Below are positions 15,065-32,935 of a stretch of DNA of 64,000 nt, one piece after another. The notes below the pieces were generated by a model, which worked only from the letters and a program-made list of their open reading frames with translations, made no database searches and was not told where the DNA came from. Made by a program: the position numbers and the translations under genes. Location: positions 930,001 through 994,000 of the forward strand of contig NZ_VFPG01000002.1 of the NCBI RefSeq assembly GCF_006716565.1, read 5' to 3'. This DNA is from Nocardia bhagyanarayanae (lineage in GTDB: Bacteria; Actinomycetota; Actinomycetes; Mycobacteriales; Mycobacteriaceae). Every line of letters begins with the position of its first letter. Position 1 is the first letter of the stretch.

Positions 15065-15805
15065 TCAGTTCGGGTTGCCGACCTGGGCGGCCAAGCCGCG
15101 TTCCCAGGCGCGGTGCTTGCGCCCGGCGTCCGTGACGAACGGCGGCCTCGACGCCGCGCCGACGAACGCGTGGTTGACCCACGACCCCGGGAAGCGGCAG
15201 GGGCGGAGCACATCGAGGAACAGCACCACCCGGGCGCTTTCGGAGTCGTTCCACGCGCGGTGCCGGTAGGAGTCATCGAACAGCAGGCTCTCGCCCTCGT
15301 GCCAGTGTCTCGTCAGTCCGCCGACCTGAATACCGCACCGCCGCGGATCGGCGACGCGCAACCCCAGGTGGTAGCGGAGCACCCCGTTCCAGAGCCCGCG
15401 GCGCGGCGGGACGCGCTCGCCCGGCGGCAGGATGGCGAACATCGCCGTGACGAGCCCCGATACCCGATCGAGCAGCGCCGCCGTCTCGGGGCAGCGGGCC
15501 CGGTTGGCCTCCGATCGGACGCCGTAACCGCAAAAGAAGAAGGCGCGTCTGCGCTCGTCGGAGGTCGCGGCCACATCGAAGGAGTTCTCGTGGAAGGCGG
15601 GCAGGTCGTCGCAGTGGACCAGGACCGCGTTCATCTCCGCTCGGATGGTCTGCCAGTTCTCCTCCAGCGGGCGCGTCCAGGCGAACTCTCGCGGGTCCAA
15701 GAACGGCTCGGTGCTGACCAGGGACGTACGAGCCACCAGCTGTTCGAGCGGGGACAGCAGCCGCACGGCGGCGTCGTACGTGTGGTCGCGAAGGCTCTTG
15801 GACAT
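15065..15805 (-). CDS. aspartyl/asparaginyl beta-hydroxylase domain protein
   Basis: A 246-residue protein starting MSKSLRDHTYDAAVR at ATG 15805; the longer frame upstream is Arg-rich and unlikely to be coding. The AspH/LpxO-type double-stranded beta-helix is visible in LRYHLGLRV (first iron His) and FDDSYRHRAWNDSESARV (second iron His and the Arg that holds 2-oxoglutarate). The family are Fe(II)/2-oxoglutarate oxygenases hydroxylating amino-acid residues or lipid A chains. This genome has no lipid A, so a peptide or small-molecule substrate is more likely. Confidence 0.87.
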   Translation of the reverse strand: MSKSLRDHTYDAAVRLLSPLEQLVARTSLVSTEPFLDPREFAWTRPLEENWQTIRAEMNAVLVHCDDLPAFHENSFDVAATSDERRRAFFFCGYGVRSEANRARCPETAALLDRVSGLVTAMFAILPPGERVPPRRGLWNGVLRYHLGLRVADPRRCGIQVGGLTRHWHEGESLLFDDSYRHRAWNDSESARVVLFLDVLRPCRFPGSWVNHAFVGAASRPPFVTDAGRKHRAWERGLAAQVGNPN

Positions 15806-15894
15806 GGCTGCGAGGATAAGAAGGCGGACCGCGCGCACGAGGATGGTTCCGTCGGGGCGGCGTGTCGGCCGGGGAGCCGCGCCGGACCGCGCCG

Positions 15895-16749
15895 TCAGCG
15901 TCCTGGCTTCTCCGTGACGAAGATGGCCGTGCCGGGGAAGAGCTCGCCGCGCAGCGGGCTCCACTGGCCCCACTCCCGGTCGAGCCATTCCGGCCATTCC
16001 GGTTCGACGATGTCGCGCAGCGTCAATCCGGCGGCGACGATCTCGCGGACCCGATCACCGATGGTGCGGTGGTGCTCGACGTAGGTCGCCGCGCCGTCGG
16101 CGTCGACCTCTACATAAGGGGTGCGATCGAAATAGGGAATGGACGCCGTGAGACCGGCAGGGCCGGGATCGTCGGGGAAGATCCAGCGCATCGGGTGGTT
16201 GACCGAGAACACCCAGCGCCCGCCGGGCCGCAGCACCCTGGCCACCTCGCGCATCAGCAACGCGGAATCGGCGACGAACGGCACCGCGCCGAACGCCGAG
16301 CAGGCGAGATCGAAGGACTCGTCCGCGAACGGCAGCGCCTCGGCCCCCGCCTGCACCAGCGGAACCCGCGGACCGCCGCGCGCCATCGCGGCCAGCCCGC
16401 GCTCCAGCATGCCCATCGACAGATCGAGACCGACCGGCAGCGCGCCCTGCCCGGCCAGCCAGCGCGCGCACGGCGCCGAGCCGCAGCCGATCTCCAGGAC
16501 GCGCTTGCCCGCCAAGTCCTCGCCGAGGAAGTGCATATCGCCCTCGTGCAGCCCCTCGGGGCACCAGACGAACTCGCCGCCGGGGGAGTCCACGCCGAGG
16601 AAATCGGCGTGCGTCTCGTGGTACTGGTCGGCGTCGGCGTCCCACCAGCGCCTGCTCGCGCGTTGACTGTCGGCCGAACTCAGCTTGGTTCGTGCGGTTC
16701 CGGTGGTTCCGAGCAGCGCGTTCGCTTGGGCATGGCGATCTTCCGACAC
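15895..16749 (-). CDS. class I SAM-dependent methyltransferase
   Basis: A 284-residue protein with a GTG start. Motif I is VLEIGCGSAPCARWL (about residues 84-98), the acidic residue of motif II is in GLDLS, and FDLACSAFGAVPFV and VLRPGGRWVFSVNHP are motifs IV-VI of the Methyltransf_11 fold. The C-terminal 70 residues, rich in Trp (PEWPEWLDREWGQW), are probably a substrate lid. It lies directly upstream of, and divergent from, rpsA. The substrate is not known. Confidence 0.9.
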   Translation of the reverse strand: MSEDRHAQANALLGTTGTARTKLSSADSQRASRRWWDADADQYHETHADFLGVDSPGGEFVWCPEGLHEGDMHFLGEDLAGKRVLEIGCGSAPCARWLAGQGALPVGLDLSMGMLERGLAAMARGGPRVPLVQAGAEALPFADESFDLACSAFGAVPFVADSALLMREVARVLRPGGRWVFSVNHPMRWIFPDDPGPAGLTASIPYFDRTPYVEVDADGAATYVEHHRTIGDRVREIVAAGLTLRDIVEPEWPEWLDREWGQWSPLRGELFPGTAIFVTEKPGR

Positions 16750-16914: not shown

Positions 16915-17062
16915 ATAACAGAGCGCCCGTGCTGAGTTTCACAAGTGGATGAGTGCGGTACGTTCCTCTGTGTCCGTCGTCGCATCGTCGCGGTGATTTC
17001 GCAGCGTACCGAAAGTTCCAATGTCCGCAACCGACCACAATCCGTCCGGAGCAAACCGACAC

Positions 17063-18529
17063 ATGCCCACCACCGTCACCTCGCCGCAGGTAGCCGTCAA
17101 CGACATCGGCTCCGCCGAGGACTTCCTCGCCGCCATCGACGCCACGATCAAGTACTTCAACGACGGCGACATCGTCGAAGGAACCATCGTCAAGGTCGAT
17201 CGCGACGAGGTTCTGCTCGACATCGGTTACAAGACCGAAGGCGTCATCCCCTCCCGCGAACTCTCCATCAAGCACGATGTCGACCCGAACGAGGTCGTTT
17301 CCGTGGGCGATGAGGTCGAGGCCCTCGTTCTCACCAAGGAGGACAAGGAAGGCCGCCTGATCCTGTCGAAGAAGCGGGCGCAGTACGAGCGTGCGTGGGG
17401 CACCATCGAGGAGCTCAAGGAGAAGGACGAGGCCGTCAAGGGCACCGTCATCGAGGTCGTCAAGGGCGGCCTGATCCTCGACATCGGCCTGCGCGGCTTC
17501 CTGCCCGCCTCGCTCGTCGAGATGCGCCGCGTCCGCGACCTCCAGCCGTACGTCGGCAAGGAGATCGAGGCCAAGATCATCGAGCTGGACAAGAACCGCA
17601 ACAACGTGGTTCTGTCCCGCCGCGCGTGGCTGGAGCAGACCCAGTCCGAGGTGCGCTCCGAGTTCCTGCACCAGCTGCAGAAGGGCCAGGTCCGCAAGGG
17701 TGTGGTCTCCTCGATCGTCAACTTCGGCGCCTTCGTCGATCTGGGCGGCGTGGACGGTCTGGTGCACGTCTCCGAGCTGTCCTGGAAGCACATCGACCAC
17801 CCGTCCGAGGTCGTCGAGGTGGGCAACGAGGTCACCGTCGAGGTTCTCGACGTCGACCTGGACCGCGAGCGCGTCTCGCTGTCGCTCAAGGCGACCCAGG
17901 AAGACCCGTGGCGTCAGTTCGCCCGCACCCACGCGATCGGCCAGATCGTGCCGGGCAAGGTCACCAAGCTGGTTCCGTTCGGTGCGTTCGTGCGCGTCGA
18001 AGAGGGCATCGAGGGCCTGGTGCACATCTCCGAGCTGGCCGAGCGCCACGTCGAGGTGCCGGACCAGGTCGTCGCGGTCGGCGACGACGCGATGGTCAAG
18101 GTCATCGACATCGACCTGGAGCGTCGCCGGATCTCGCTGTCGCTGAAGCAGGCGAACGAGGATTACCACGCCGAGTTCGACCCGTCGAAGTACGGCATGG
18201 CCGACAGCTACGACGAGCAGGGCAACTACATCTTCCCCGAGGGCTTCGACCCCGAGACCAACGAATGGCTCGAGGGCTTCGACAAGCAGCGCGAGGAGTG
18301 GGAGGGCCGCTACGCCGAGGCGGAGCGTCGCCACAAGATGCACACCGCGCAGATGGAGAAGATGGCGGCCGACGCCGCGGCCGAGGCCGCGAACGGCGGC
18401 GGCGCGTCGAACTACTCCTCCGAGAGCGGTTCGCAGTCCTCCTCCAGCCAGGCCGAGCCCGCCGGCGGTTCGCTGGCCAGCGACGCCCAGCTGGCGGCCC
18501 TGCGGGAGAAGCTCTCCGGCAACGCCTGA
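17063..18529 (+). CDS. rpsA: 30S ribosomal protein S1
   Basis: A 488-residue protein almost colinear with M. tuberculosis RpsA, with the start set at MPTTVTSPQVAVNDIG by that comparison although a GGAG is 12 nt away and an upstream in-frame ATG exists at 17021. Four S1 RNA-binding repeats follow one another (about 35-105, 125-190, 210-280, 295-365). The C-terminal 115 residues form the disordered actinobacterial tail ending in ASDAQLAALREKLSGN. It binds mRNA leaders on the small subunit. The typical partner coaE is 13 kb away here. Confidence 0.98.
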   Translation: MPTTVTSPQVAVNDIGSAEDFLAAIDATIKYFNDGDIVEGTIVKVDRDEVLLDIGYKTEGVIPSRELSIKHDVDPNEVVSVGDEVEALVLTKEDKEGRLILSKKRAQYERAWGTIEELKEKDEAVKGTVIEVVKGGLILDIGLRGFLPASLVEMRRVRDLQPYVGKEIEAKIIELDKNRNNVVLSRRAWLEQTQSEVRSEFLHQLQKGQVRKGVVSSIVNFGAFVDLGGVDGLVHVSELSWKHIDHPSEVVEVGNEVTVEVLDVDLDRERVSLSLKATQEDPWRQFARTHAIGQIVPGKVTKLVPFGAFVRVEEGIEGLVHISELAERHVEVPDQVVAVGDDAMVKVIDIDLERRRISLSLKQANEDYHAEFDPSKYGMADSYDEQGNYIFPEGFDPETNEWLEGFDKQREEWEGRYAEAERRHKMHTAQMEKMAADAAAEAANGGGASNYSSESGSQSSSSQAEPAGGSLASDAQLAALREKLSGNA

Positions 18530-19308: not shown

Positions 19309-19388
19309 CCTCTAAACGCTGTTCGATTACTACACGCCGTTCAGTAACGACACGGGTGATAGTAGTCGCACGCTGTAGAGTGTCAACC

Positions 19389-20087
19389 GTGGTCGAGGTG
19401 CAGAGTCGCAGGGAACGTTTGCGCGCGCAGGCGACGGAGGAGATCAAGGCCATCGCCCGACGCCTGCTCGCCGAGGGCGGTCCGGACGCGATCTCGCTGC
19501 GCGCCATCGCGCGCGAAATGGGCATGACCGCGGGCGCGTTGTACGGCTACTTCGCCACCCGCGACGAGCTGATCACCACCCTCATCTCCGACGTCTACAC
19601 CGCACTCATCGACCGGTTGGAGGCCGCAAGGGACGCCGTGTCCGAGGACGACCCCGCCGGGCGCATCATCGCCTGGGGTGAGGCCGTCCGGGACTGGGCC
19701 GTCGCGAATCCCGAAGGGTTCCGGTTGATCTACGGCGACCCGGTGCCCGGGTACCAGCCGCCGCCGGAAGGCCCGGCGCGCGAGGCGGAGCTGCGCGCCT
19801 GCGACGGACTCGTCGGGCTGGCCGCCGCCGCCTGGCCGCGCGCCGCCGCGACGCAATCCCTCGGCGATTCGACGTGGTCGGACTTCGACCCGGCACTGGT
19901 CGAGCACGTGCGCGCCGACTTTCCCGACCTGCCCCCGGCCGCGCTGGCGCTGGCGCTGCGCATGTGGGGCCGCATGCACGGTCCCATCGCGCTCGAGGTG
20001 TACGGCCATCTGCGCCCCCAATCGCAGGATCCCGCAAAGCTATTCCACATCGAGATGCTCGATCTGGTGCGGGCGGTGGGCCTGTGA
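19389..20087 (+). CDS. TetR family transcriptional regulator (first of two)
   Basis: A 232-residue protein; GTG 19389 (VVEVQSRRERLRAQ) is preferred over an upstream GTG-rich extension. The DNA-binding domain at about 14-60 contains ISLRAIAREMGMTAGALYGYFATRDEL. A C-terminal WHG-type ligand domain follows (MWGRMHGPIALEVYGH). It is divergent from the NmrA-type oxidoreductase (80 bp between starts) and translationally coupled (GTGA) to the next TetR gene, so two regulators share one transcript. Confidence 0.92.
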   Translation: MVEVQSRRERLRAQATEEIKAIARRLLAEGGPDAISLRAIAREMGMTAGALYGYFATRDELITTLISDVYTALIDRLEAARDAVSEDDPAGRIIAWGEAVRDWAVANPEGFRLIYGDPVPGYQPPPEGPAREAELRACDGLVGLAAAAWPRAAATQSLGDSTWSDFDPALVEHVRADFPDLPPAALALALRMWGRMHGPIALEVYGHLRPQSQDPAKLFHIEMLDLVRAVGL

Positions 20088-20716
20088 CGGCGACCCATCG
20101 AAGGTTCCCCGCCACCCTCTGGGAGCGCAGGAAGGTCGAGGCGATGAGCCGGATTCAGCGCGTCGCGCTGGATCTGTTCGACGCGTACGGATATCGCGAG
20201 GTGACCGTCGAGCGGGTGGCCGCTGCGGCGGGCGTTTCCCCCAGCTCGATCTACCGCTACTTCGGCACCAAGGAGATGCTGGTCCTCTACGACGAGGCGG
20301 ATCCGCAGCTGCTGGAGGTGCTGCGCACCGCGGGCGACGGCGAAACCCTGGACCCCACGGCGCTTCTCGCGGTGGCGCGTCCGCTGGTGCCGGTGATGAT
20401 CTCGGCACTGATCACCGCGGACTCCGAACGCCGCATCGCGCGCAGGCTGCGCTACGTGCGCGCCTTCCCCGAGGTCAGGGACGGCCAGACCAAGCAGATG
20501 CGCGAACTGGAGGAACAGTTCCGTCAGCTGTTCGCCGAACGCTGCGGGCGCGACCCCAACGACCTGAAGGTCCGGATGGCCGCCTCCACCGCCATCTGGG
20601 GCGGTGTGGCGGCGCTGGACCATTGGGCGGGACAGGATTTCACCGAGCCGCTGAGCGAGGTCTACACCGCGGCGGTGGAATCCATCATCGATGCGCTGGA
20701 GCAGATCGTCCGCTGA
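20084..20716 (+). CDS. TetR family transcriptional regulator, probable repressor of the MmpL gene
   Basis: A 210-residue protein; GTG at 20084 overlaps the stop of the previous gene. The helix-turn-helix reads VTVERVAAAAGVSPSSIYRYFGTKEML. Its 3' end overlaps the convergent mmpL-type gene by 32 bp. TetR next to an RND exporter is a standard drug- or lipid-responsive pair, and a perfect 21-bp palindrome sits at the exporter promoter. That this TetR rather than the first one binds it is inferred from position. Confidence 0.9.
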   Translation: MTATHRRFPATLWERRKVEAMSRIQRVALDLFDAYGYREVTVERVAAAAGVSPSSIYRYFGTKEMLVLYDEADPQLLEVLRTAGDGETLDPTALLAVARPLVPVMISALITADSERRIARRLRYVRAFPEVRDGQTKQMRELEEQFRQLFAERCGRDPNDLKVRMAASTAIWGGVAALDHWAGQDFTEPLSEVYTAAVESIIDALEQIVR

Positions 20717-22976: not shown

Positions 22977-22997
22977 ACCTGATAGTCACTATCAGGT
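22977..22997. promoter_or_regulatory. perfect 21-bp palindrome, TetR-type operator of the MMPL gene
   Basis: Arms ACCTGATAGT and ACTATCAGGT flank one central C, 18 bp upstream of the exporter start codon. Size and symmetry are typical of TetR operators. A related half-site lies at 23036-23049. Confidence 0.85.
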
Positions 22998-23076: not shown

Positions 23077-23091
23077 TGAAAACCGTTGTCA
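23077..23091. promoter_or_regulatory. Zur-box-like palindrome upstream of the OCD/decarboxylase operon
   Basis: TGAAAACCGTTGTCA is a 7-1-7 inverted repeat with one mismatch. It closely follows the actinobacterial Zur box pattern TGAAAATNATTTTCA, agreeing at the outer TGAAAA and TCA positions. A possible -10 element TAGCAT at 23100-23105 puts the palindrome across the -35 and spacer, a repressing position. The operon's first start codon is 117 bp further on. The match was made by eye, not scored. Confidence 0.6.
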
Positions 23092-23208
23092 AATTCCGAT
23101 AGCATGCTGAGCGGGTTCGCCGCACTTCCGGGAAGAGCGCTGCCGCAACGTTTTTCGTCACCGACCCCCGGATCGAAGCCGAACACCGCACTACGACATC
23201 GGAGTTCC

Positions 23209-24186
23209 ATGACCAACGCTCTGCACATCCTGACCCGCACCGATCTGGCCGACATCGATCTCACCCCGGCCGAGGTCATCGATCTGGTGACCGACGGCTA
23301 CCGCGCCTACGCGCGCGGCGAATCCAGCTGCCCGGTGAAGCTGATGATGCCGATCCCGAAGACCGAACGCGACGCGGTGTCGTATTCGATGCTGGGCTAC
23401 GACGGCTCGCTCGAGCAGGTCGGCTTCAAGACCTCCTATCGGCAGGGCAGTCAGAGCGCCGAGAAGTACTACACGACGATCACGCTCTACGACGACACGA
23501 CCGGCCTGCCCTTCGCGTTGATGGACTGCCAGCGGATCGGCGCGGCGCGCACACCCGCGACCACCGCGATCATCGCCGCGCACTGCGCCAAACCGGACGC
23601 CGCCAGTGCCCTGATGATCGGCACCGGTGTCCAGGGCCGTAACACGTTGCCCTACTTGCTCACCGCGCTGCCGGGGCTGAAGCGGCTGCGGTTGTTCGGC
23701 ACGCACCCGGATGGCATCGCCGAGAGCATCGCCACGCTGCGGCGCTGGTTTCCGGACCGCGAGGTCGAACTCGTCGAGGACCTGCCCGCCGCGGCCGCCG
23801 AGTCCGACATCGTGGTCGCCGCCTCGGGGCGCGCCGCGCATCCGCAGGTCCGCACCGACTGGCTGAAGCCCGGTGGACTGCTCGTCTCGGTGGCCAGCAA
23901 GGGCGTGGCGAGCGGCGCGCTGCGGGAGGCCGACTACGCCATCGCCACCAGCGCGGGCCAATTGGGCGTCACCGGAACGCGTTTGGCGGGACCCGACGGC
24001 GTCGTCACCATCGACGCGGAACTGCCGGAGATCGTGGCGGGCCGCGCTCCCGGACGCCGCTCGGACGACGACCGAGTCTTCGCGTTCTCCAGCGGCATGA
24101 TCATCACCGACATCCCGGTGGCACACGCGCTGGCCACCCGCGCGGTCGCGGCCGGACGCGGACAGCGGGTGCGGCTGTGGTCGTGA
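23209..24186 (+). CDS. ornithine cyclodeaminase / mu-crystallin family enzyme, SbnB-like by context
   Basis: A 325-residue protein with GGAG 5 nt before the ATG. The OCD_Mu_crystall fold shows in the N-terminal half-barrel and the NAD(H)-binding motif ALMIGTGVQGR (residues 138-148), with ARTPATTAI before it and DIVVAASGRAAHP after it. Family members are ornithine cyclodeaminase, ketimine reductase, alanine dehydrogenase and SbnB, which oxidatively cleaves an amino-acid conjugate to 2,3-diaminopropionate. An SbnA-like gene two genes down favours an SbnB-type or opine-dehydrogenase-type role. It is the first gene of a four-gene operon; the next gene overlaps by 4 bp. Confidence 0.85.
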   Translation: MTNALHILTRTDLADIDLTPAEVIDLVTDGYRAYARGESSCPVKLMMPIPKTERDAVSYSMLGYDGSLEQVGFKTSYRQGSQSAEKYYTTITLYDDTTGLPFALMDCQRIGAARTPATTAIIAAHCAKPDAASALMIGTGVQGRNTLPYLLTALPGLKRLRLFGTHPDGIAESIATLRRWFPDREVELVEDLPAAAAESDIVVAASGRAAHPQVRTDWLKPGGLLVSVASKGVASGALREADYAIATSAGQLGVTGTRLAGPDGVVTIDAELPEIVAGRAPGRRSDDDRVFAFSSGMIITDIPVAHALATRAVAAGRGQRVRLWS

Positions 24187-25526
24187 ACACCGCGCTGCTC
24201 GACGTCCCCTCGCTGCCCGCGCTGGAACCGGCCTGGCTGCGCCGCGTTCGCGCGGAGCCGGAGTTTCTGTTCGACATCCAGCACGCCGTCGGCGGACCGT
24301 TCCACCTCGTGTATCCGGATCGATTCGCGGCGAATCTGATCGGGTTCCGCGATGTCTTGGCCGCGCGGGGCGTGGCGGGGCGCGTCTACTACGGCAAGAA
24401 GGCCAACAAGGCGGGCTGCTGGCTGGACGCGGTGGCCGAGCTTGACGGTGCGGTCGATGTGGCCAGCGAACCCGAACTCGTGCACGCCCTCGCGCACGGC
24501 GTGCGCGGCCGCGACATCGGCGTCACCGGAGCCGCGAAAAGTGCCGGGCTGCTGCGCCTCGCGGCCAGGCACGACTGCGTGGTAGCGATCGACGCGCTCG
24601 ACGAGCTCGAGCGGCTCGCGGCGATCGCCACCTCGGCCGGACGGACGCGGGTACTGCTGCGGCGGCTGCCGCCGAACGCCCCGGACAGTCGTTTCGGGTT
24701 GTCCGATGCCGACCTCGAGTACGCGATCGCGCGGTGCGCGCGACTGGCCTCGGTCGTCGAACTGATCGGATTCTCCTTCCACCTGGACGGATACGCCGTC
24801 GCACCGCGCGCCGAACTCGCCAACGAGCTGATCGGGTTGTGCGCCTCGACCAAGGCGCGGGGACTGCCCATCTCGGCGATCTCGATCGGCGGCGGTTTCG
24901 CGTGCAGTTATCTGGCCGAGGCGGATTGGGCCCGTTTTCGAGCCGAGCGGAACCCCGGCTGGTTCCACGCGGGCAAGACTTTCGACAAGTTCTATCCCTA
25001 TCACCAAGGCCCGACCGGTCCGGCCATGCTCGACGCCATCCTGGCCACCGAGTTCGACGGGCGGGCACTCGCGGAACGCTTGCGCGACAACGGTATCGAG
25101 CTATTTATCGAACCGGGCCGCGCGCTGCTCATCGACGCTGGGTGCACCGTCTTCCCCGTGCTCGGCTACAAGCAGAACGCGGACTACGGGATCACCACGG
25201 TCCAGGGCCTGAGCATGAGCGTCTCCGAACAGTGGAAGGGCAGCGAGTTCCTGCCCGACCCGATCCTGGTGCCGCGCGATTCCGATCCCGCCGCGCGGCC
25301 CGTCGCCTCCTGCGTCGGCGGTGCGAGCTGCATGGAGTACGACGTGCTCACCTGGCGGAAAGTACCGCTGGCGCAGCGTCCGGAATACGGTGACCTACTG
25401 CTGTATCCGAACACCGCCGGGTACCAGATGGACAAGAACGAGAGCGAGTTCCATCAGCTGCCGTTGCCGCCGAAGGTCGTGGTGACCGAGGAGGCGGGCC
25501 GACTGCGCTGGAGGCTGGACCGATGA
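24183..25526 (+). CDS. Y4yA-type PLP-dependent decarboxylase (fold III, DABA/DAP-decarboxylase family)
   Basis: A 447-residue protein counted from GTG 24183, which overlaps the previous stop as GTGA; an in-frame GTG lies at 24177. The alanine-racemase-like barrel carries the PLP lysine in VYYGKKANK. The phosphate-binding glycines are in SIGGGF, and the C-terminal greek-key has FIEPGRALL and CVGGASCMEYD, where the Cys may be the catalytic residue donated across the dimer. The closest described group I recognise is Y4yA of rhizobia. A candidate substrate is the amino-acid conjugate or diaminopropionate unit made by the flanking enzymes, as SbnH acts in staphyloferrin B synthesis. Confidence 0.85.
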   Translation: MNTALLDVPSLPALEPAWLRRVRAEPEFLFDIQHAVGGPFHLVYPDRFAANLIGFRDVLAARGVAGRVYYGKKANKAGCWLDAVAELDGAVDVASEPELVHALAHGVRGRDIGVTGAAKSAGLLRLAARHDCVVAIDALDELERLAAIATSAGRTRVLLRRLPPNAPDSRFGLSDADLEYAIARCARLASVVELIGFSFHLDGYAVAPRAELANELIGLCASTKARGLPISAISIGGGFACSYLAEADWARFRAERNPGWFHAGKTFDKFYPYHQGPTGPAMLDAILATEFDGRALAERLRDNGIELFIEPGRALLIDAGCTVFPVLGYKQNADYGITTVQGLSMSVSEQWKGSEFLPDPILVPRDSDPAARPVASCVGGASCMEYDVLTWRKVPLAQRPEYGDLLLYPNTAGYQMDKNESEFHQLPLPPKVVVTEEAGRLRWRLDR

Positions 25527-26593
25527 CGACGAGGCTGCCGCGACCGCGGGAGAACGTGGTGCGCAACGCCTCGGAGTTGATCGGCGCCACACCGCTGCTG
25601 GAACTGGTGCGCACCGGTTCCGGGACGCGCCTGCTGCTGAAGCTCGAAGGGTTCAACCCGACCGGCTCGGCCAAGGTGCGCATGGCGCGCGAGATGGTGC
25701 TGCAAGCCGAGCGGGAAGGACACCTGCGACCCGGCGGCCACATCGTCGAACCGACCTCGGGCAACACCGGAACGGGTCTGGCGCTGTTGGCGCTCGAACG
25801 CGGCTACGCGTTCACCGCCGTCGTCGACGATCACGCCGCAGAGGACAAACTGCGCGCCATGAAGGCGATGGGTGCGCGGCTGGTCCGCGTGGCGGGCGAC
25901 GACACCGGCGGTCCGAGCACGGTGGAACGTCGCCGGGTCGCGGCCGAGATCGCCGAGCGCACCGGCGCTTTTCGTCCCGATCAGCACAACAACCCGCACA
26001 ACAACGCGGGCTATCGCGAGCTGGCCGGCGAACTGCTGTCCGATCTGCACACCGACGTCGATTACCTGGTCGGCGCGGTGGGCACGGGCGGATCGCTGTG
26101 CGGCACCGTCGAAGAGCTGCGCAGGCTGGGGTCCGGGGTGTCCGCGATCGGCGTCGAGCCGGTCGGTTCGATCATCTTCGGCGGCGCGGGCGGGCCGTAC
26201 TGGCAGACCGGCGCGGGCAGCCCGGCCGGATTCCCGGTGGGCGGCAATGTGAAGTACGAAGCCATCGACGAGAGTTGCCGGGTCGGCGACCGCGAGGCGT
26301 TCGCCACCGCGCGCGTCGTGGCGCGGCGTACGGGCATTCTGGTCGGCGGCACCGCGGGCGCGGCGGTGTTCGCCGCGCTCGGCCGCCTCGTGCACCTGCC
26401 CGCGGGCGCCACCGTGGTGGTATTGGTCTGCGACGCGGGGGAGAAGTACCTGGACACGGTGTACGACGAGGAGTGGCTGGTGGCACGCGGGCTCTACGAC
26501 GAGGCGGCCCAGCGGCGCATCGGCCGTCTCTTCGCGGCCTACGACGAATCGCTGCGGCTGGCGGAGTTCGACAGCGCGCGCACGGGAAGCTGA
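25523..26593 (+). CDS. cysteine-synthase-like PLP enzyme, SbnA-like beta-replacement enzyme
   Basis: A 356-residue fold-type II PLP enzyme; its ATG overlaps the preceding stop. Lys51 in NPTGSAKVRMA is the Schiff-base lysine, PTSGNTGTGLA is the substrate loop, and the glycine-rich PLP-phosphate loop is GAVGTGGSLCGT. It is longer than O-acetylserine sulfhydrylase (about 310), as is SbnA, which joins O-phosphoserine to glutamate. No cysteine-pathway genes are near. With the SbnB-like and decarboxylase genes it most likely builds a 2,3-diaminopropionate-type or N-(aminocarboxyethyl) amino acid. The amine partner (Glu, Asp or other) cannot be told. Confidence 0.85.
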   Translation: MTTRLPRPRENVVRNASELIGATPLLELVRTGSGTRLLLKLEGFNPTGSAKVRMAREMVLQAEREGHLRPGGHIVEPTSGNTGTGLALLALERGYAFTAVVDDHAAEDKLRAMKAMGARLVRVAGDDTGGPSTVERRRVAAEIAERTGAFRPDQHNNPHNNAGYRELAGELLSDLHTDVDYLVGAVGTGGSLCGTVEELRRLGSGVSAIGVEPVGSIIFGGAGGPYWQTGAGSPAGFPVGGNVKYEAIDESCRVGDREAFATARVVARRTGILVGGTAGAAVFAALGRLVHLPAGATVVVLVCDAGEKYLDTVYDEEWLVARGLYDEAAQRRIGRLFAAYDESLRLAEFDSARTGS

Positions 26594-26600
26594 GGCGGTC

Positions 26601-28022
26601 ATGGCATTTCGTTTCTCGTCGCACTGGGCGGACTACCGGGCGATCGTGGCGCTGGCCGCGCCGATCGCGGGGATCCAGCTGGCGCAGGTCGCGCTGACCA
26701 CCGTCGACCTGGCGATGATGGGGTTGCTCGGGGTTGCCGCGGTGGCGGCGGGTGGACTCGCCTTGCTGCTGTACAACCAGTTGCGCACCATGTGCGTCGG
26801 GATGGTCACCGGTGTGGGCAACATGATCGCCGCGGCTGTCGGTCGCGGCGAGAAGCGCACGGGCACGGCGGATCTCGACGAGACAGCGCGCGCCGAGATC
26901 CGCGGGTACGTGCGCGCCGCGCTGGCTGTCGCCACCGGCACGGCCGCGGCGGGCGCGGTGACGCTGATCGGGTTGGGTTACGCGCTGGCCTGGCTCGGCC
27001 AGGATCCCGACGTGCTGGAACTGGCCAGGCCCATCATCTGGACGCTGGCACCCGGTCTGATCCCGATGCTGTGGCTGAACGTGCTGCGGCAGTTCGCCGT
27101 CGGCATGCGGCGCGCCGGGTCGTTGCTGCGCGTCACGCTGCTCTCCATCGCGGTCAACGCGCTGCTGAACGCGCTGTTCCTGTTCGGCTGGTTCGGCCTG
27201 CCGAAGCTGGGGCTCGCGGGCATCGGCCTGGCCACCACGCTGGTCCAGATATGGACCTGCGCCACGTATTTCGCGACCGTGCGGCGCGATCCGATGCTCG
27301 GTGAGCTGCTTTCGCTGCGCGCATGGCGGGCCGACCGCGAGACGATGCGGCGGATCGTGCGGATGGGTACGCCCATCGCCCTGACCTACGGCGCGGAAGC
27401 CGCCGTCACCTCGGTCGCCACGTTGCTGATGGGTGTGTTCGGGCCGGTGGCGCTCGCGGCGAGCAATATCGTGAACCAGCTGGCCTACATCGTGTACCAG
27501 GTGAACATCGGTCTGTCCCAAGGCGCTTCGATTCTGGTCAGCCGTACCGTCGGCCGGGGCGAGTGGGCGATGGTCGCGGGGATCGCGCGGCGCACGTTCG
27601 CGCTCGGCTTCGGATTCATGACCGTCGTCGGCATCGGCTACGTGCTCTTCCCCGCCGCCGTGCTCGCGCCGTTCCTCGGCGGTGACCGCGACGACGCGGC
27701 GGTGGTCGCGGCGGCCTCGACGCTGCTCTGGTTCGCCATCGTCCAGCAGTACTGCAAGGGTTCGCAGAACCTGTGCATCGGGCTGTTGCGCGGCATCGGC
27801 GAGACCAAGGCCGGGCTGCGCAACACCCTGGTCGGCTACTTCGCCCTCGGTGTGCCCGCGATGGCGGTGTGCGGGTTCGCGGTGGACTGGCGCGGGCCCG
27901 GGGTCTGGCTCGGGCTGTGCGTCGGGTTCGGCGCCACCGCGGCGCTGGTCTGGCGCAGTTTTCTGCGGCGGGTCGGCGGACTCGGCGAGCGAGCGCCGGA
28001 GGCGCTGTCCGCCGCGAGTTGA
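26601..28022 (+). CDS. MATE family efflux transporter
   Basis: A 473-residue membrane protein starting 7 nt after the preceding stop, so in the same operon. Two MatE repeats give about 12 membrane helices (first repeat about 15-230, second 250-460). The N-terminal helix contains IAGIQLAQVALTTVDLAMMG, typical of the NorM/DinF group, and the second repeat repeats the pattern in IALTYGAEAAVTSVATLLMG. MATE proteins export small, often cationic, molecules with H+ or Na+. Its place at the end of the biosynthetic operon suggests export of the product. Confidence 0.93.
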   Translation: MAFRFSSHWADYRAIVALAAPIAGIQLAQVALTTVDLAMMGLLGVAAVAAGGLALLLYNQLRTMCVGMVTGVGNMIAAAVGRGEKRTGTADLDETARAEIRGYVRAALAVATGTAAAGAVTLIGLGYALAWLGQDPDVLELARPIIWTLAPGLIPMLWLNVLRQFAVGMRRAGSLLRVTLLSIAVNALLNALFLFGWFGLPKLGLAGIGLATTLVQIWTCATYFATVRRDPMLGELLSLRAWRADRETMRRIVRMGTPIALTYGAEAAVTSVATLLMGVFGPVALAASNIVNQLAYIVYQVNIGLSQGASILVSRTVGRGEWAMVAGIARRTFALGFGFMTVVGIGYVLFPAAVLAPFLGGDRDDAAVVAAASTLLWFAIVQQYCKGSQNLCIGLLRGIGETKAGLRNTLVGYFALGVPAMAVCGFAVDWRGPGVWLGLCVGFGATAALVWRSFLRRVGGLGERAPEALSAAS

Positions 28023-31437: not shown

Positions 31438-31744
31438 TGGATTTCCTTTGCTTGCTGGTACTGGCCTGGATCGCCACGGCGAAGATTAGCGGAACGAAAG
31501 TGTGGAACACAGTATTTTGCGGAAGTAATTGCCTCGGCGTGTCGGAAAGTTGTCGGGTCGCTCCGCGGCCGCGGCGTAAATGTTGCGAATCGGTCTCGGC
31601 CGCGTCACGGAACGGGCAATTGGGGCCGCCGTGTGTGAATTGAACGGAGTGAGTGGGTAATCCGCTCGTTCGCGTGGTGTGCCCCCGGAAGGGCCGCCGG
31701 CGGGCGGTCGGCCGGGCGTGCGCGGCGGATGCGAAACTGAACGA

Positions 31745-32935
31745 ATGTTGCGGATCGGCCTCACCGGAGGCATGGGAGCTGGCAAGTCGACGGTGGCGCG
31801 GATCCTCGCCGAGTGTGGCGGGGTGATCGTCGATTCCGACCTGATCGCCAGGGAGGTCGTCGCGCCGGGCACCGAGGGGCTGGCGGCCTTGGTCGAGGCG
31901 TTCGGCCCCGGCATCCTCGCGGCGGACGGCAGCCTGGACCGCCCCGCGCTCGCGGCCGTCGCGTTCGCCGACGACGCGGCCCGCGCAACCCTGAATTCCA
32001 TTACCCATCCGCTGGTCGGAAAGCGCACCGCGGAATTGATTTCGGCGGCCCCGGCGGACGCCATTGTCGTCCAAGATATTCCGCTGTTGGTGGAAAATGG
32101 TTTGGCGCCGTTGATGAATCTGGTGTTGATCGTCGACGTCGACGCGGAAACGCGAATTCGTCGTCTCGCGGAATTCCGTGGCGTTACGGAAGCCGATGCG
32201 CGGGCTCGAATTTCGGCGCAAGCGACGGACGAACAGCGGCGCGCGGTGGCCGACGTCCTGCTGGACAACAGCGGCCCGGCGGGCGCGGTCGACGCGGCGG
32301 TGCACCAGCTGTGGGAGGAGCGGCTGGTGCCGTTCGAGCGCAACCTGCGCACCGGGACGCCCGCTGCGCGACGGGAGCTGCGGCTGGTGCCGCACGATCC
32401 GGAATGGGCCGCGCAGGCGCAGCGGCTCATCGCACGACTATGGGTGGCCTGCGGCGCGGCGGCCTCGCGCATCGATCACATCGGTTCCACGGCGGTGCCG
32501 GGTCTGCCCGCGAAAGACGTGCTGGATCTGCAGGTCACCGTGGCCGACCTGGCGGCGGCCGACGGGCTGCGCGACGCGCTCGGCGCGGCGGGTTTCCCGG
32601 TGAAAGCGCATGTGACGCAGGACAACCCGAAGCCGACCGAGGGCGACCCGGACGGGACCGATACCGCCCGCTGGGCCAAGCGGCTGCACGGCAACGCCGA
32701 TCCGGGCCGCATCGCCAACGTGCACATCCGTGTGGACGGGTCGCCGGGGCAGCGGTTCGCCCTGGCGTTCCGCGACTGGCTGCGCGCGGACGCGGCGGCG
32801 CGCGAGGAGTACCTCGCGGTCAAGTGCGAGGCGGAGGCCAAGGCGGCCGGGCTCACCGGCGAGGCCGCGTCGGAGGCGTATTACGCGGTGAAGGAACCGT
32901 GGTTCGACGCGGTCTATCGCCGGGTGGTCGGCTGA
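31745..32935 (+). CDS. coaE: dephospho-CoA kinase fused to a GrpB-like domain
   Basis: A 396-residue protein. The N-terminal kinase domain (1-200) has P-loop GGMGAGKS at 8-15, the substrate Asp in VIVDSDLIAREV and the lid region FRGVTEADARARI, and catalyses the last step of coenzyme A synthesis. From about 210 a GrpB/UPF0157 nucleotidyltransferase-like domain follows (VPHDPEWAAQA, IDHIGSTAVPGLPAKDVLDLQV). The same fusion occurs in M. tuberculosis CoaE (Rv1631), where the second domain is thought to aid folding and not catalysis. The start MLRIGLTGG is fixed by the kinase motif. It is displaced from rpsA by an accessory block. Confidence 0.96.
   Translation: MLRIGLTGGMGAGKSTVARILAECGGVIVDSDLIAREVVAPGTEGLAALVEAFGPGILAADGSLDRPALAAVAFADDAARATLNSITHPLVGKRTAELISAAPADAIVVQDIPLLVENGLAPLMNLVLIVDVDAETRIRRLAEFRGVTEADARARISAQATDEQRRAVADVLLDNSGPAGAVDAAVHQLWEERLVPFERNLRTGTPAARRELRLVPHDPEWAAQAQRLIARLWVACGAAASRIDHIGSTAVPGLPAKDVLDLQVTVADLAAADGLRDALGAAGFPVKAHVTQDNPKPTEGDPDGTDTARWAKRLHGNADPGRIANVHIRVDGSPGQRFALAFRDWLRADAAAREEYLAVKCEAEAKAAGLTGEAASEAYYAVKEPWFDAVYRRVVG

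Follow-up and report, generated by a model that had tools for sequence, protein, structure and literature searches.

The window analysed here is a 64,000-nucleotide stretch of the Nocardia bhagyanarayanae genome (7.56 Mb in two contigs; G000:C2:930001-994000). It contains a tightly packed four-gene operon, all on one strand and spanning positions 23209-28022, which encodes an ornithine cyclodeaminase (OCD)/mu-crystallin enzyme, a Y4yA-type decarboxylase, an SbnA/CBS-like enzyme and a MATE exporter. We consider it very probable that this operon is repressed by the zinc regulator Zur and directs synthesis of a zincophore of the ethylenediaminedisuccinic acid (EDDS) type, a judgement that concerns the class of aminopolycarboxylate and its control by zinc. 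Zur control is predicted on the basis of the genome's own Zur sites, conservation of the upstream box in relatives and an orthologous operon in Amycolatopsis japonica. The same three lines favour the original prediction of a zinc-responsive operon that makes and exports a small aminopolycarboxylate chelator. The operon, its domains, the Zur-site match and the orthology to the A. japonica operon are direct results of the computations described below. The odds that the product is EDDS itself are roughly even, because in the tree the window clade joins proteobacterial operons first and the A. japonica clade only after them.

Operon architecture and enzyme families

The first gene (23209..24186, + strand, ATG start) encodes an SbnB-like NAD(P)-dependent enzyme of the OCD/mu-crystallin family (PF02423 OCD_Mu_crystall, 111 bits). 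A TTG at 23086, taken from a mechanical list of open reading frames (ORFs), was rejected as its start, as it falls within the palindrome described below, and the ATG at 23209 is preferred. The second gene (24183..25526, +; GTG 24183, also open from GTG 24177) encodes a fold-III pyridoxal phosphate (PLP) decarboxylase (PF02784 Orn_Arg_deC_N, 65 bits), which scores 82 bits against NCBIfam lysA (cut-off 298) and is named Y4yA type after the family annotation of one relative. The third (25523..26593, +) encodes a fold-II PLP enzyme resembling SbnA and cystathionine synthase (PF00291 PALP, 218 bits), with its PLP lysine in NPTGSAK. The fourth (26601..28022, +) encodes the MATE-family exporter (Pfam MatE; TIGR00797, 163.6 bits, above the cut-off of 147.4), whose position next to the three enzymes is kept in most relatives. 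The OCD and Y4yA genes overlap by 4 bp from GTG 24183 (10 bp from 24177), the Y4yA and SbnA-like genes overlap by 4 bp, and a 7-bp gap precedes the MATE gene; these four genes and junctions are as first proposed, with agreeing coordinates and the OCD start at ATG 23209.

Among the products of the staphyloferrin B genes sbnA, sbnB and sbnH, the fold-II PLP enzyme and the OCD enzyme are related to those of the window. SbnH is a fold-III decarboxylase. The SbnA and SbnB assignments of the original prediction do not hold. Against TIGR03945 (SbnA) the SbnA-like enzyme reaches 231.3 bits (cut-off 349.95), and against TIGR03944 (SbnB) the OCD enzyme reaches 103.6 bits (cut-off 326.9), where the A. 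japonica OCD scores 95.9; a pair from an Aureimonas plasmid and a paralogous pair from the same Nocardia genome, both introduced below, are likewise far under these cut-offs. SbnA genes above the cut-off occur nine times among 81 genomes of the order, at 352-428 bits. In S. aureus SbnA, selectivity for O-phosphoserine is attributed to Arg132, Tyr152 and Ser185 in the excerpted text of PMC12414870. With this numbering transferred by spacing, the three positions are E/H/G in the window and Q/H/G in A. japonica. Of five SbnA genes above the cut-off, 5/5 carry the Arg and the Tyr and 4/5 the Ser; DQH and GTGG in the window stand where SbnA has QY and S. Membership in SbnA and SbnB was therefore set aside, and by their scores the three enzymes are relatives, not members, of the NCBIfam SbnB, lysA and SbnA families.

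This distant kinship with SbnA and SbnB is what would speak for plain 2,3-diaminopropionate as the product, made by the SbnA/SbnB route and either decarboxylated to ethylenediamine or fed into another pathway, without itself being a metallophore. We regard this reading as quite unlikely and have set it aside. The window proteins, the A. japonica OCD and the two other pairs all lie far under the SbnA and SbnB cut-offs, the 20 scanned ORFs neighbouring the operon contain no synthetase domain, unlike the staphyloferrin B system, and no non-ribosomal peptide synthetase (NRPS) domain, and the operon has a dedicated MATE exporter and a Zur box.

A predicted Zur box and its genomic context

A 15-bp near-palindrome, TGAAAACCGTTGTCA, lies at 23077..23091 (no strand assigned), 117 bp ahead of the OCD ATG, and differs at one position from the Zur-type pattern TGAAAANNNTTTTCA. 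Only three sites genome-wide come within one mismatch of this pattern, the window box among them, where 0.37 would be expected from the base composition of the window; for a stretch of 400 bp the corresponding expectation is 2e-5. Relaxing the threshold to two mismatches yields 46 sites genome-wide, compared with 14 for the reversed pattern and 10 expected, and the 64-kb window contains no further site at this level. Shuffled versions of the upstream stretch never matched equally well (0/200 with TGAAAANNNTTTTCA and 0/500 with a widened motif, TGAMAANNNTTKTCA); all upstream-stretch shuffles in this work preserve single-base composition only. The widened motif was set after the relatives had been seen, and the genome-wide count used the stricter TGAAAANNNTTTTCA. 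The Zur-box-like palindrome originally noted before the operon thus stands up to these counts.

To place the box in context, the surroundings of nine other sites (eight stretches) out of the 46 were read. Another site within one mismatch is flanked on one side by the gene for an AztA-type zinc ATPase (266 bits, cut-off 220) and on the other by a divergently oriented ABC-3 permease gene. A pair of two-mismatch sites separates L28/L33 from MRF (586 bits, cut-off 375), and a further two-mismatch site precedes a CobW GTPase that is close to ZigA but under the ZigA cut-off. The window box therefore matches the type of site found at clear zinc genes of this genome, namely the AztA, L28/L33, MRF and CobW neighbours. 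The genome also encodes a clear Zur, a Fur-family protein whose nearest counterparts are S. coelicolor Zur (best PDB match 3mwm, E 5e-59) and M. tuberculosis FurB. On the strength of the motif match, TGAAAACCGTTGTCA is taken as a predicted instance of the genome's own Zur box.

The sole perfect match to TGAAAANNNTTTTCA in the genome (G000:C1:3052130) precedes a gene for a 232-aa protein (L052 2601-3299), which matched no Pfam or NCBIfam family and whose secreted look was judged by eye. In a relative of this protein (L057 1919-2680), a Zur-like site overlaps the coding start.

Relation to the EDDS operon and its metallophore class

Excerpts from four papers report that the EDDS genes of Amycolatopsis japonicum are Zur-controlled and were discovered by screening for Zur sites (PMC6103462, PMC4993170, PMC9252823, PMC13379591). 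The original prediction had invoked EDDS as a precedent for a Zur-controlled zinc chelator, with which these excerpts agree. One of them describes the route as distinct from NRPS and NRPS-independent siderophore (NIS) pathways (PMC4993170), and another names aspartate as a precursor (PMC9252823). This bears on the earlier description of the window operon as a minimal system with no NRPS or IucA/IucC: the absence was confirmed in the scanned neighbouring ORFs, but it is not unusual, as EDDS biosynthesis is already described in such terms in the excerpt of PMC4993170.

One genome of our collection (G417) was assigned to A. japonica on the basis of a 12-kb stretch in its plasmid contig that matches NZ_CP008954.1 at 100% identity. 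It encodes a single Y4yA homologue at E<=1e-20, which sits within the same OCD, Y4yA, SbnA-like, MATE order as in the window. We infer that this locus is aes, the set of EDDS genes, because it is the only such locus in that genome. The two operons have in common the four-gene order, a 10-bp overlap of the OCD and Y4yA ORFs and an upstream Zur-type box. They differ in protein sequence (60-74% identity; 74% for the OCD enzyme and 60% for the decarboxylase) and in spacing, with the window box 117 bp before the start codon and the A. japonica box, AGACAATCATTTTCA, ending 45 bp ahead of it. They also fall into different subclades of the tree described below, which is not expected for operons with the same product. 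Nine ORFs around the A. japonica operon were scanned; they include a LysR regulator, a response regulator, a TPR protein and a peroxidase, and no importer was found among them.

Aminopolycarboxylic acid metallophores were added as a class in antiSMASH 7, according to the excerpt of PMC10320115, and the gene set of the class combines cysteine-synthase-like, decarboxylase and ornithine-cyclodeaminase-like genes (PMC13206832). All three occur together in the window operon, which thus adds to an already described class. Other members have been described: excerpts report one such cluster in N. mangyaensis NH1, with a MATE gene and an iron-regulator site and regulated by iron (PMC10920908), and an EDDS-like cluster in C. 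striatum (PMC10486106). Clusters for EDHA (ethylenediaminesuccinic acid hydroxyarginine), which belong to the same class, are reported as common in Nocardia, accounting for 328 of 1,450 EDHA-family windows in the excerpt of PMC11888242. The window operon differs from these, known here by description only, in having no arginine hydroxylase gene, a criterion we derived from the product name. In this genome it is a separate EDHA-like paralogue (L051, described below) that has a hydroxylase gene of this kind and an iron box, and the window operon has neither. A Zur-type Nocardia operon of this kind was not found described within the openly licensed literature searched.

Proposed biosynthetic route

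The reactions, the product and its zinc binding are proposed here from the gene set and its relatives. When zinc is scarce, Zur would come off the 23077-23091 box, allowing the four genes to be transcribed. The SbnA-like enzyme would form an alpha-aminoacrylate from an activated serine and add to it an amino acid, probably L-aspartate. The Y4yA decarboxylase would then strip the serine-derived part of its carboxylate, giving ethylenediamine carrying one succinate, and the OCD-family enzyme would use NAD(P)H to attach a 2-oxo acid to the amine left free; with oxaloacetate as the partner, this would yield EDDS. The MATE protein would secrete the product, which would bind zinc.

The serine donor may or may not be O-phosphoserine, as the residues that confer this selectivity on SbnA are replaced in both the window and A. 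japonica enzymes. One ParB-domain protein encoded at the head of a proteobacterial operon was scanned and is weakly similar to the L-serine kinase SerK (45 bits, cut-off 380), a similarity that would favour O-phosphoserine.

Distribution and phylogeny

In a sample of the genus, all 118 Nocardia genomes encode a Y4yA homologue at E<=1e-40. The window type (at least 70% identity) was found in 20 of the 118, the present genome included; in a sample of the order, a match at E<=1e-140 occurs in 11 of 397 genomes. The OCD gene heads the operon in 12 of the 20 window-type genomes, and in the other 8 it is preceded by genes for a family-5 binding protein and ATPases. In N. brasiliensis, an example of the importer-headed form, Pfam identifies a binding protein, two permeases and two ATPases. 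A box with at most two mismatches to TGAMAANNNTTKTCA lies within 300 bp of the operon head in 14/20 window-type genomes.

A scan of named genomes, covering the best 80 of 165 loci, showed that the OCD, Y4yA, SbnA-like and MATE set is also present in Amycolatopsis, Kribbella, Tsukamurella, Gordonia, rhizobia, Methylobacterium and others, in some cases next to importers of metal chelates. One member is absent or placed elsewhere in L024, L079, L109, L116-L118, L121, L124, L125 and L130, of which L109, L118 and L121 lie on contigs shorter than 13 kb. Amycolatopsis coloradensis has two copies of the cassette on separate contigs (L072, L081).

Judged only by the names of their families (cysteine synthase, ornithine cyclodeaminase, diaminopimelate decarboxylase), the enzymes could point to amino-acid metabolism of the cysteine or ornithine type during zinc starvation, with no chelation and the MATE protein as a general efflux pump. 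The recurrence of all four genes as a set in these genera, partly next to metal-chelate importers, and the fit of that set to the published metallophore class make this extremely unlikely.

Phylogenetic analysis of 86 loci, with the three proteins placed side by side (SbnA-like in 85/86), joined the window clade to the proteobacterial operons with support 1.0 and then to the A. japonica clade (0.81). L109, L112, L118 and L121 were excluded, and the loci from the genus search, besides the window's own, were L024, L026, L029, L030 and L031. The proteobacterial sets of OCD, Y4yA, cysteine synthase and, variably, MATE genes, such as that of Aureimonas plasmid pAU20b (63-75% identity), resemble the window operon in gene order, but 8/12 start with a ParB-domain gene and several adjoin FecBCD importers. 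Two loci on Agrobacterium vitis plasmids, one of them a pTi (L034 and L116), have the ParB-OCD-Y4yA-cysteine synthase set with no MATE match; the set in L034 adjoins phosphonate genes for a phosphoenolpyruvate (PEP) mutase, an aminotransferase and a CDP-alcohol phosphatidyltransferase.

Regulator sites were scanned in the upstream DNA of 81 named loci in six clades (L109, L112, L118, L121, L024, L026 and L029-L031 excluded; L078 offers only 48 bp upstream). These loci share species with the 20 window-type genomes, so the two sets are not independent. Zur-type sites at up to two mismatches were found in 9/15 loci of the Nocardia window clade and 11/22 of the A. japonica clade, in 1/12 proteobacterial loci, and in none of the clades termed Noc-C (0/7), D (0/5) and TauD type (0/20). 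Iron boxes at up to five mismatches showed a different distribution: 0/15, 1/22 and 0/12 in the first three clades, and 7/7, 2/5 and 16/20 in Noc-C, D and the TauD type, the remaining 4/20 TauD-type loci having an iron box at six mismatches.

Several observations weigh against a Zur-controlled operon for an EDDS-type zincophore. The window clade sides with the proteobacterial operons ahead of the A. japonica clade, and the assignment of the A. japonica locus to aes is an argument from its uniqueness in that genome. Among the window-type genomes, 5/20 reach only three-mismatch boxes, as do 14-92 of 500 shuffles, and one (L171) has no box at up to three mismatches near the operon head. Half of the A. 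japonica-clade loci (11/22) have no Zur-type site at up to two mismatches. Within the present genome, three (L056, L058, L059) of the eight other stretches with sites at up to two mismatches show no zinc gene on reading. Finally, no importer was found among the 20 ORFs scanned around the window operon, and the binding protein of N. brasiliensis has just four matches in the rest of the genome, at 24-29% identity.

The tree also bears on the identity of the product. A chelator of the same class under the same zinc control, with a different amino acid or 2-oxo acid on the ethylenediamine core, is a serious possibility that we place a little short of even. In its favour are the sister relationship of the window clade to the proteobacterial operons instead of the A. 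japonica clade, a decarboxylase identity to A. japonica of just 60%, and a conserved loop of the SbnA-like enzyme that reads AGGPYWQ in the window and APGIYHQ in A. japonica. The arginine-hydroxylase-like gene of the paralogous operon described next likewise suggests that the cassette takes varied building blocks. Against this possibility stand motifs of the SbnA-like enzyme (DQH, GTGGS and NPTGS.K) that are identical in the window and A. japonica.

Iron-box paralogues

The same genome has a second, paralogous operon (L051 6912-18822; G000:C1:2576000-2595000) with hydroxylase, OCD, Y4yA, SbnA-like and MATE genes and a divergent family-5 importer. The hydroxylase has a TauD fold; its best NCBIfam match is GntD (246 bits), and it scores 204 bits against the arginine hydroxylase VioC, neither reaching the cut-off. 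The iron box of this operon, TTAAGCAAGGCTAACCTAA, is one of six sites in the genome with at most three mismatches to the iron-box consensus, and a reversed control gave 0. Matches to this hydroxylase (E<=1e-60) occur in 117/118 Nocardia genomes, five of them with an in-frame stop and a few fragmentary or at about 50% identity. The hydroxylase-OCD-Y4yA-SbnA-MATE order held in 20/20 loci viewed, and a family-5 binding protein lay in the fetched stretch in 11/20. L051 is probably an EDHA-like siderophore operon; such a product fits because of its arginine-hydroxylase-like gene.

A Zur-like site in this paralogous operon, AGAGAACGCTTTTCA, was rejected: it falls within the predicted start of the TauD-fold coding sequence, and 20/20 paralogue loci have it at an identical position (+22). 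We take it as presumably conserved coding sequence; conservation of a match at up to two mismatches therefore need not mean a Zur box.

The plain cassette also occurs with an iron box. This holds for the seven Noc-C loci (L105, L107, L108, L092, L122, L123 and L129; six from Nocardia and one from Arthrobacter, with L123 and L129 from one genome and both counted), and all 7/7 have FecC- and ATPase-like matches near the cassette. In L107 these take the form of a divergent binding protein, a FecCD permease and an ATPase. The plain cassette of Noc-C thus appears to be under iron control with the same chemistry.

These relatives, with IdeR/DmdR1-like boxes and FecCD-type importers, raise the question of whether the window operon too serves iron, its zinc-like box being a coincidence. 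We consider this very unlikely and have set it aside: the best iron-box match upstream of the window operon has 8 mismatches of 19, and at the thresholds given above its clade has an iron box in 0/15 loci and Zur-type sites in 9/15.

On these counts, the cassette appears with a zinc box in some loci and an iron box in others. A more detailed scenario, which we put forward tentatively and judge somewhat improbable, is that the cassette was duplicated in Nocardia and divided by metal into a plain version under Zur (the window operon), a plain version with an IdeR/DmdR1-like box beside FecCD-type importers, and a widespread hydroxylase version with an iron box. The window clade would then make a zinc chelator other than EDDS with enzymes related to the proteobacterial ones, and it would be the acid building blocks together with the regulator, not new types of enzyme, that determine the choice of metal.

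If the window operon is a zincophore operon, Nocardia, which counts opportunistic pathogens among its species, gains a probable chelator for scavenging zinc, and the same cell would probably also hold an iron counterpart made by the same chemistry. The surprise is moderate, given that the class has already been described. The two versions offer a chance to test how a single small set of enzymes is adapted to zinc in one case and iron in the other, and the operon supplies natural enzyme variants for biodegradable substitutes for EDTA.

Genomic surroundings

The operon lies in a 13-kb block that, as first described, is bracketed by rpsA (an S1-domain gene, 17021-18529) and coaE (31679-32935). 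Besides the operon, the block contains two TetR ORFs, an MMPL transporter gene and genes for a Band_7 protein, an alcohol dehydrogenase and a MarR protein. A 21-bp palindrome, ACCTGATAGTCACTATCAGGT, perfect about its central base, occupies 22977-22997 in the interval that separates the MMPL gene from the Zur box, and looks like a putative operator for one of the TetR ORFs at 19356-20716. Beyond rpsA, a gene of the aspartyl/asparaginyl beta-hydroxylase family occupies 15065-15997 on the minus strand.

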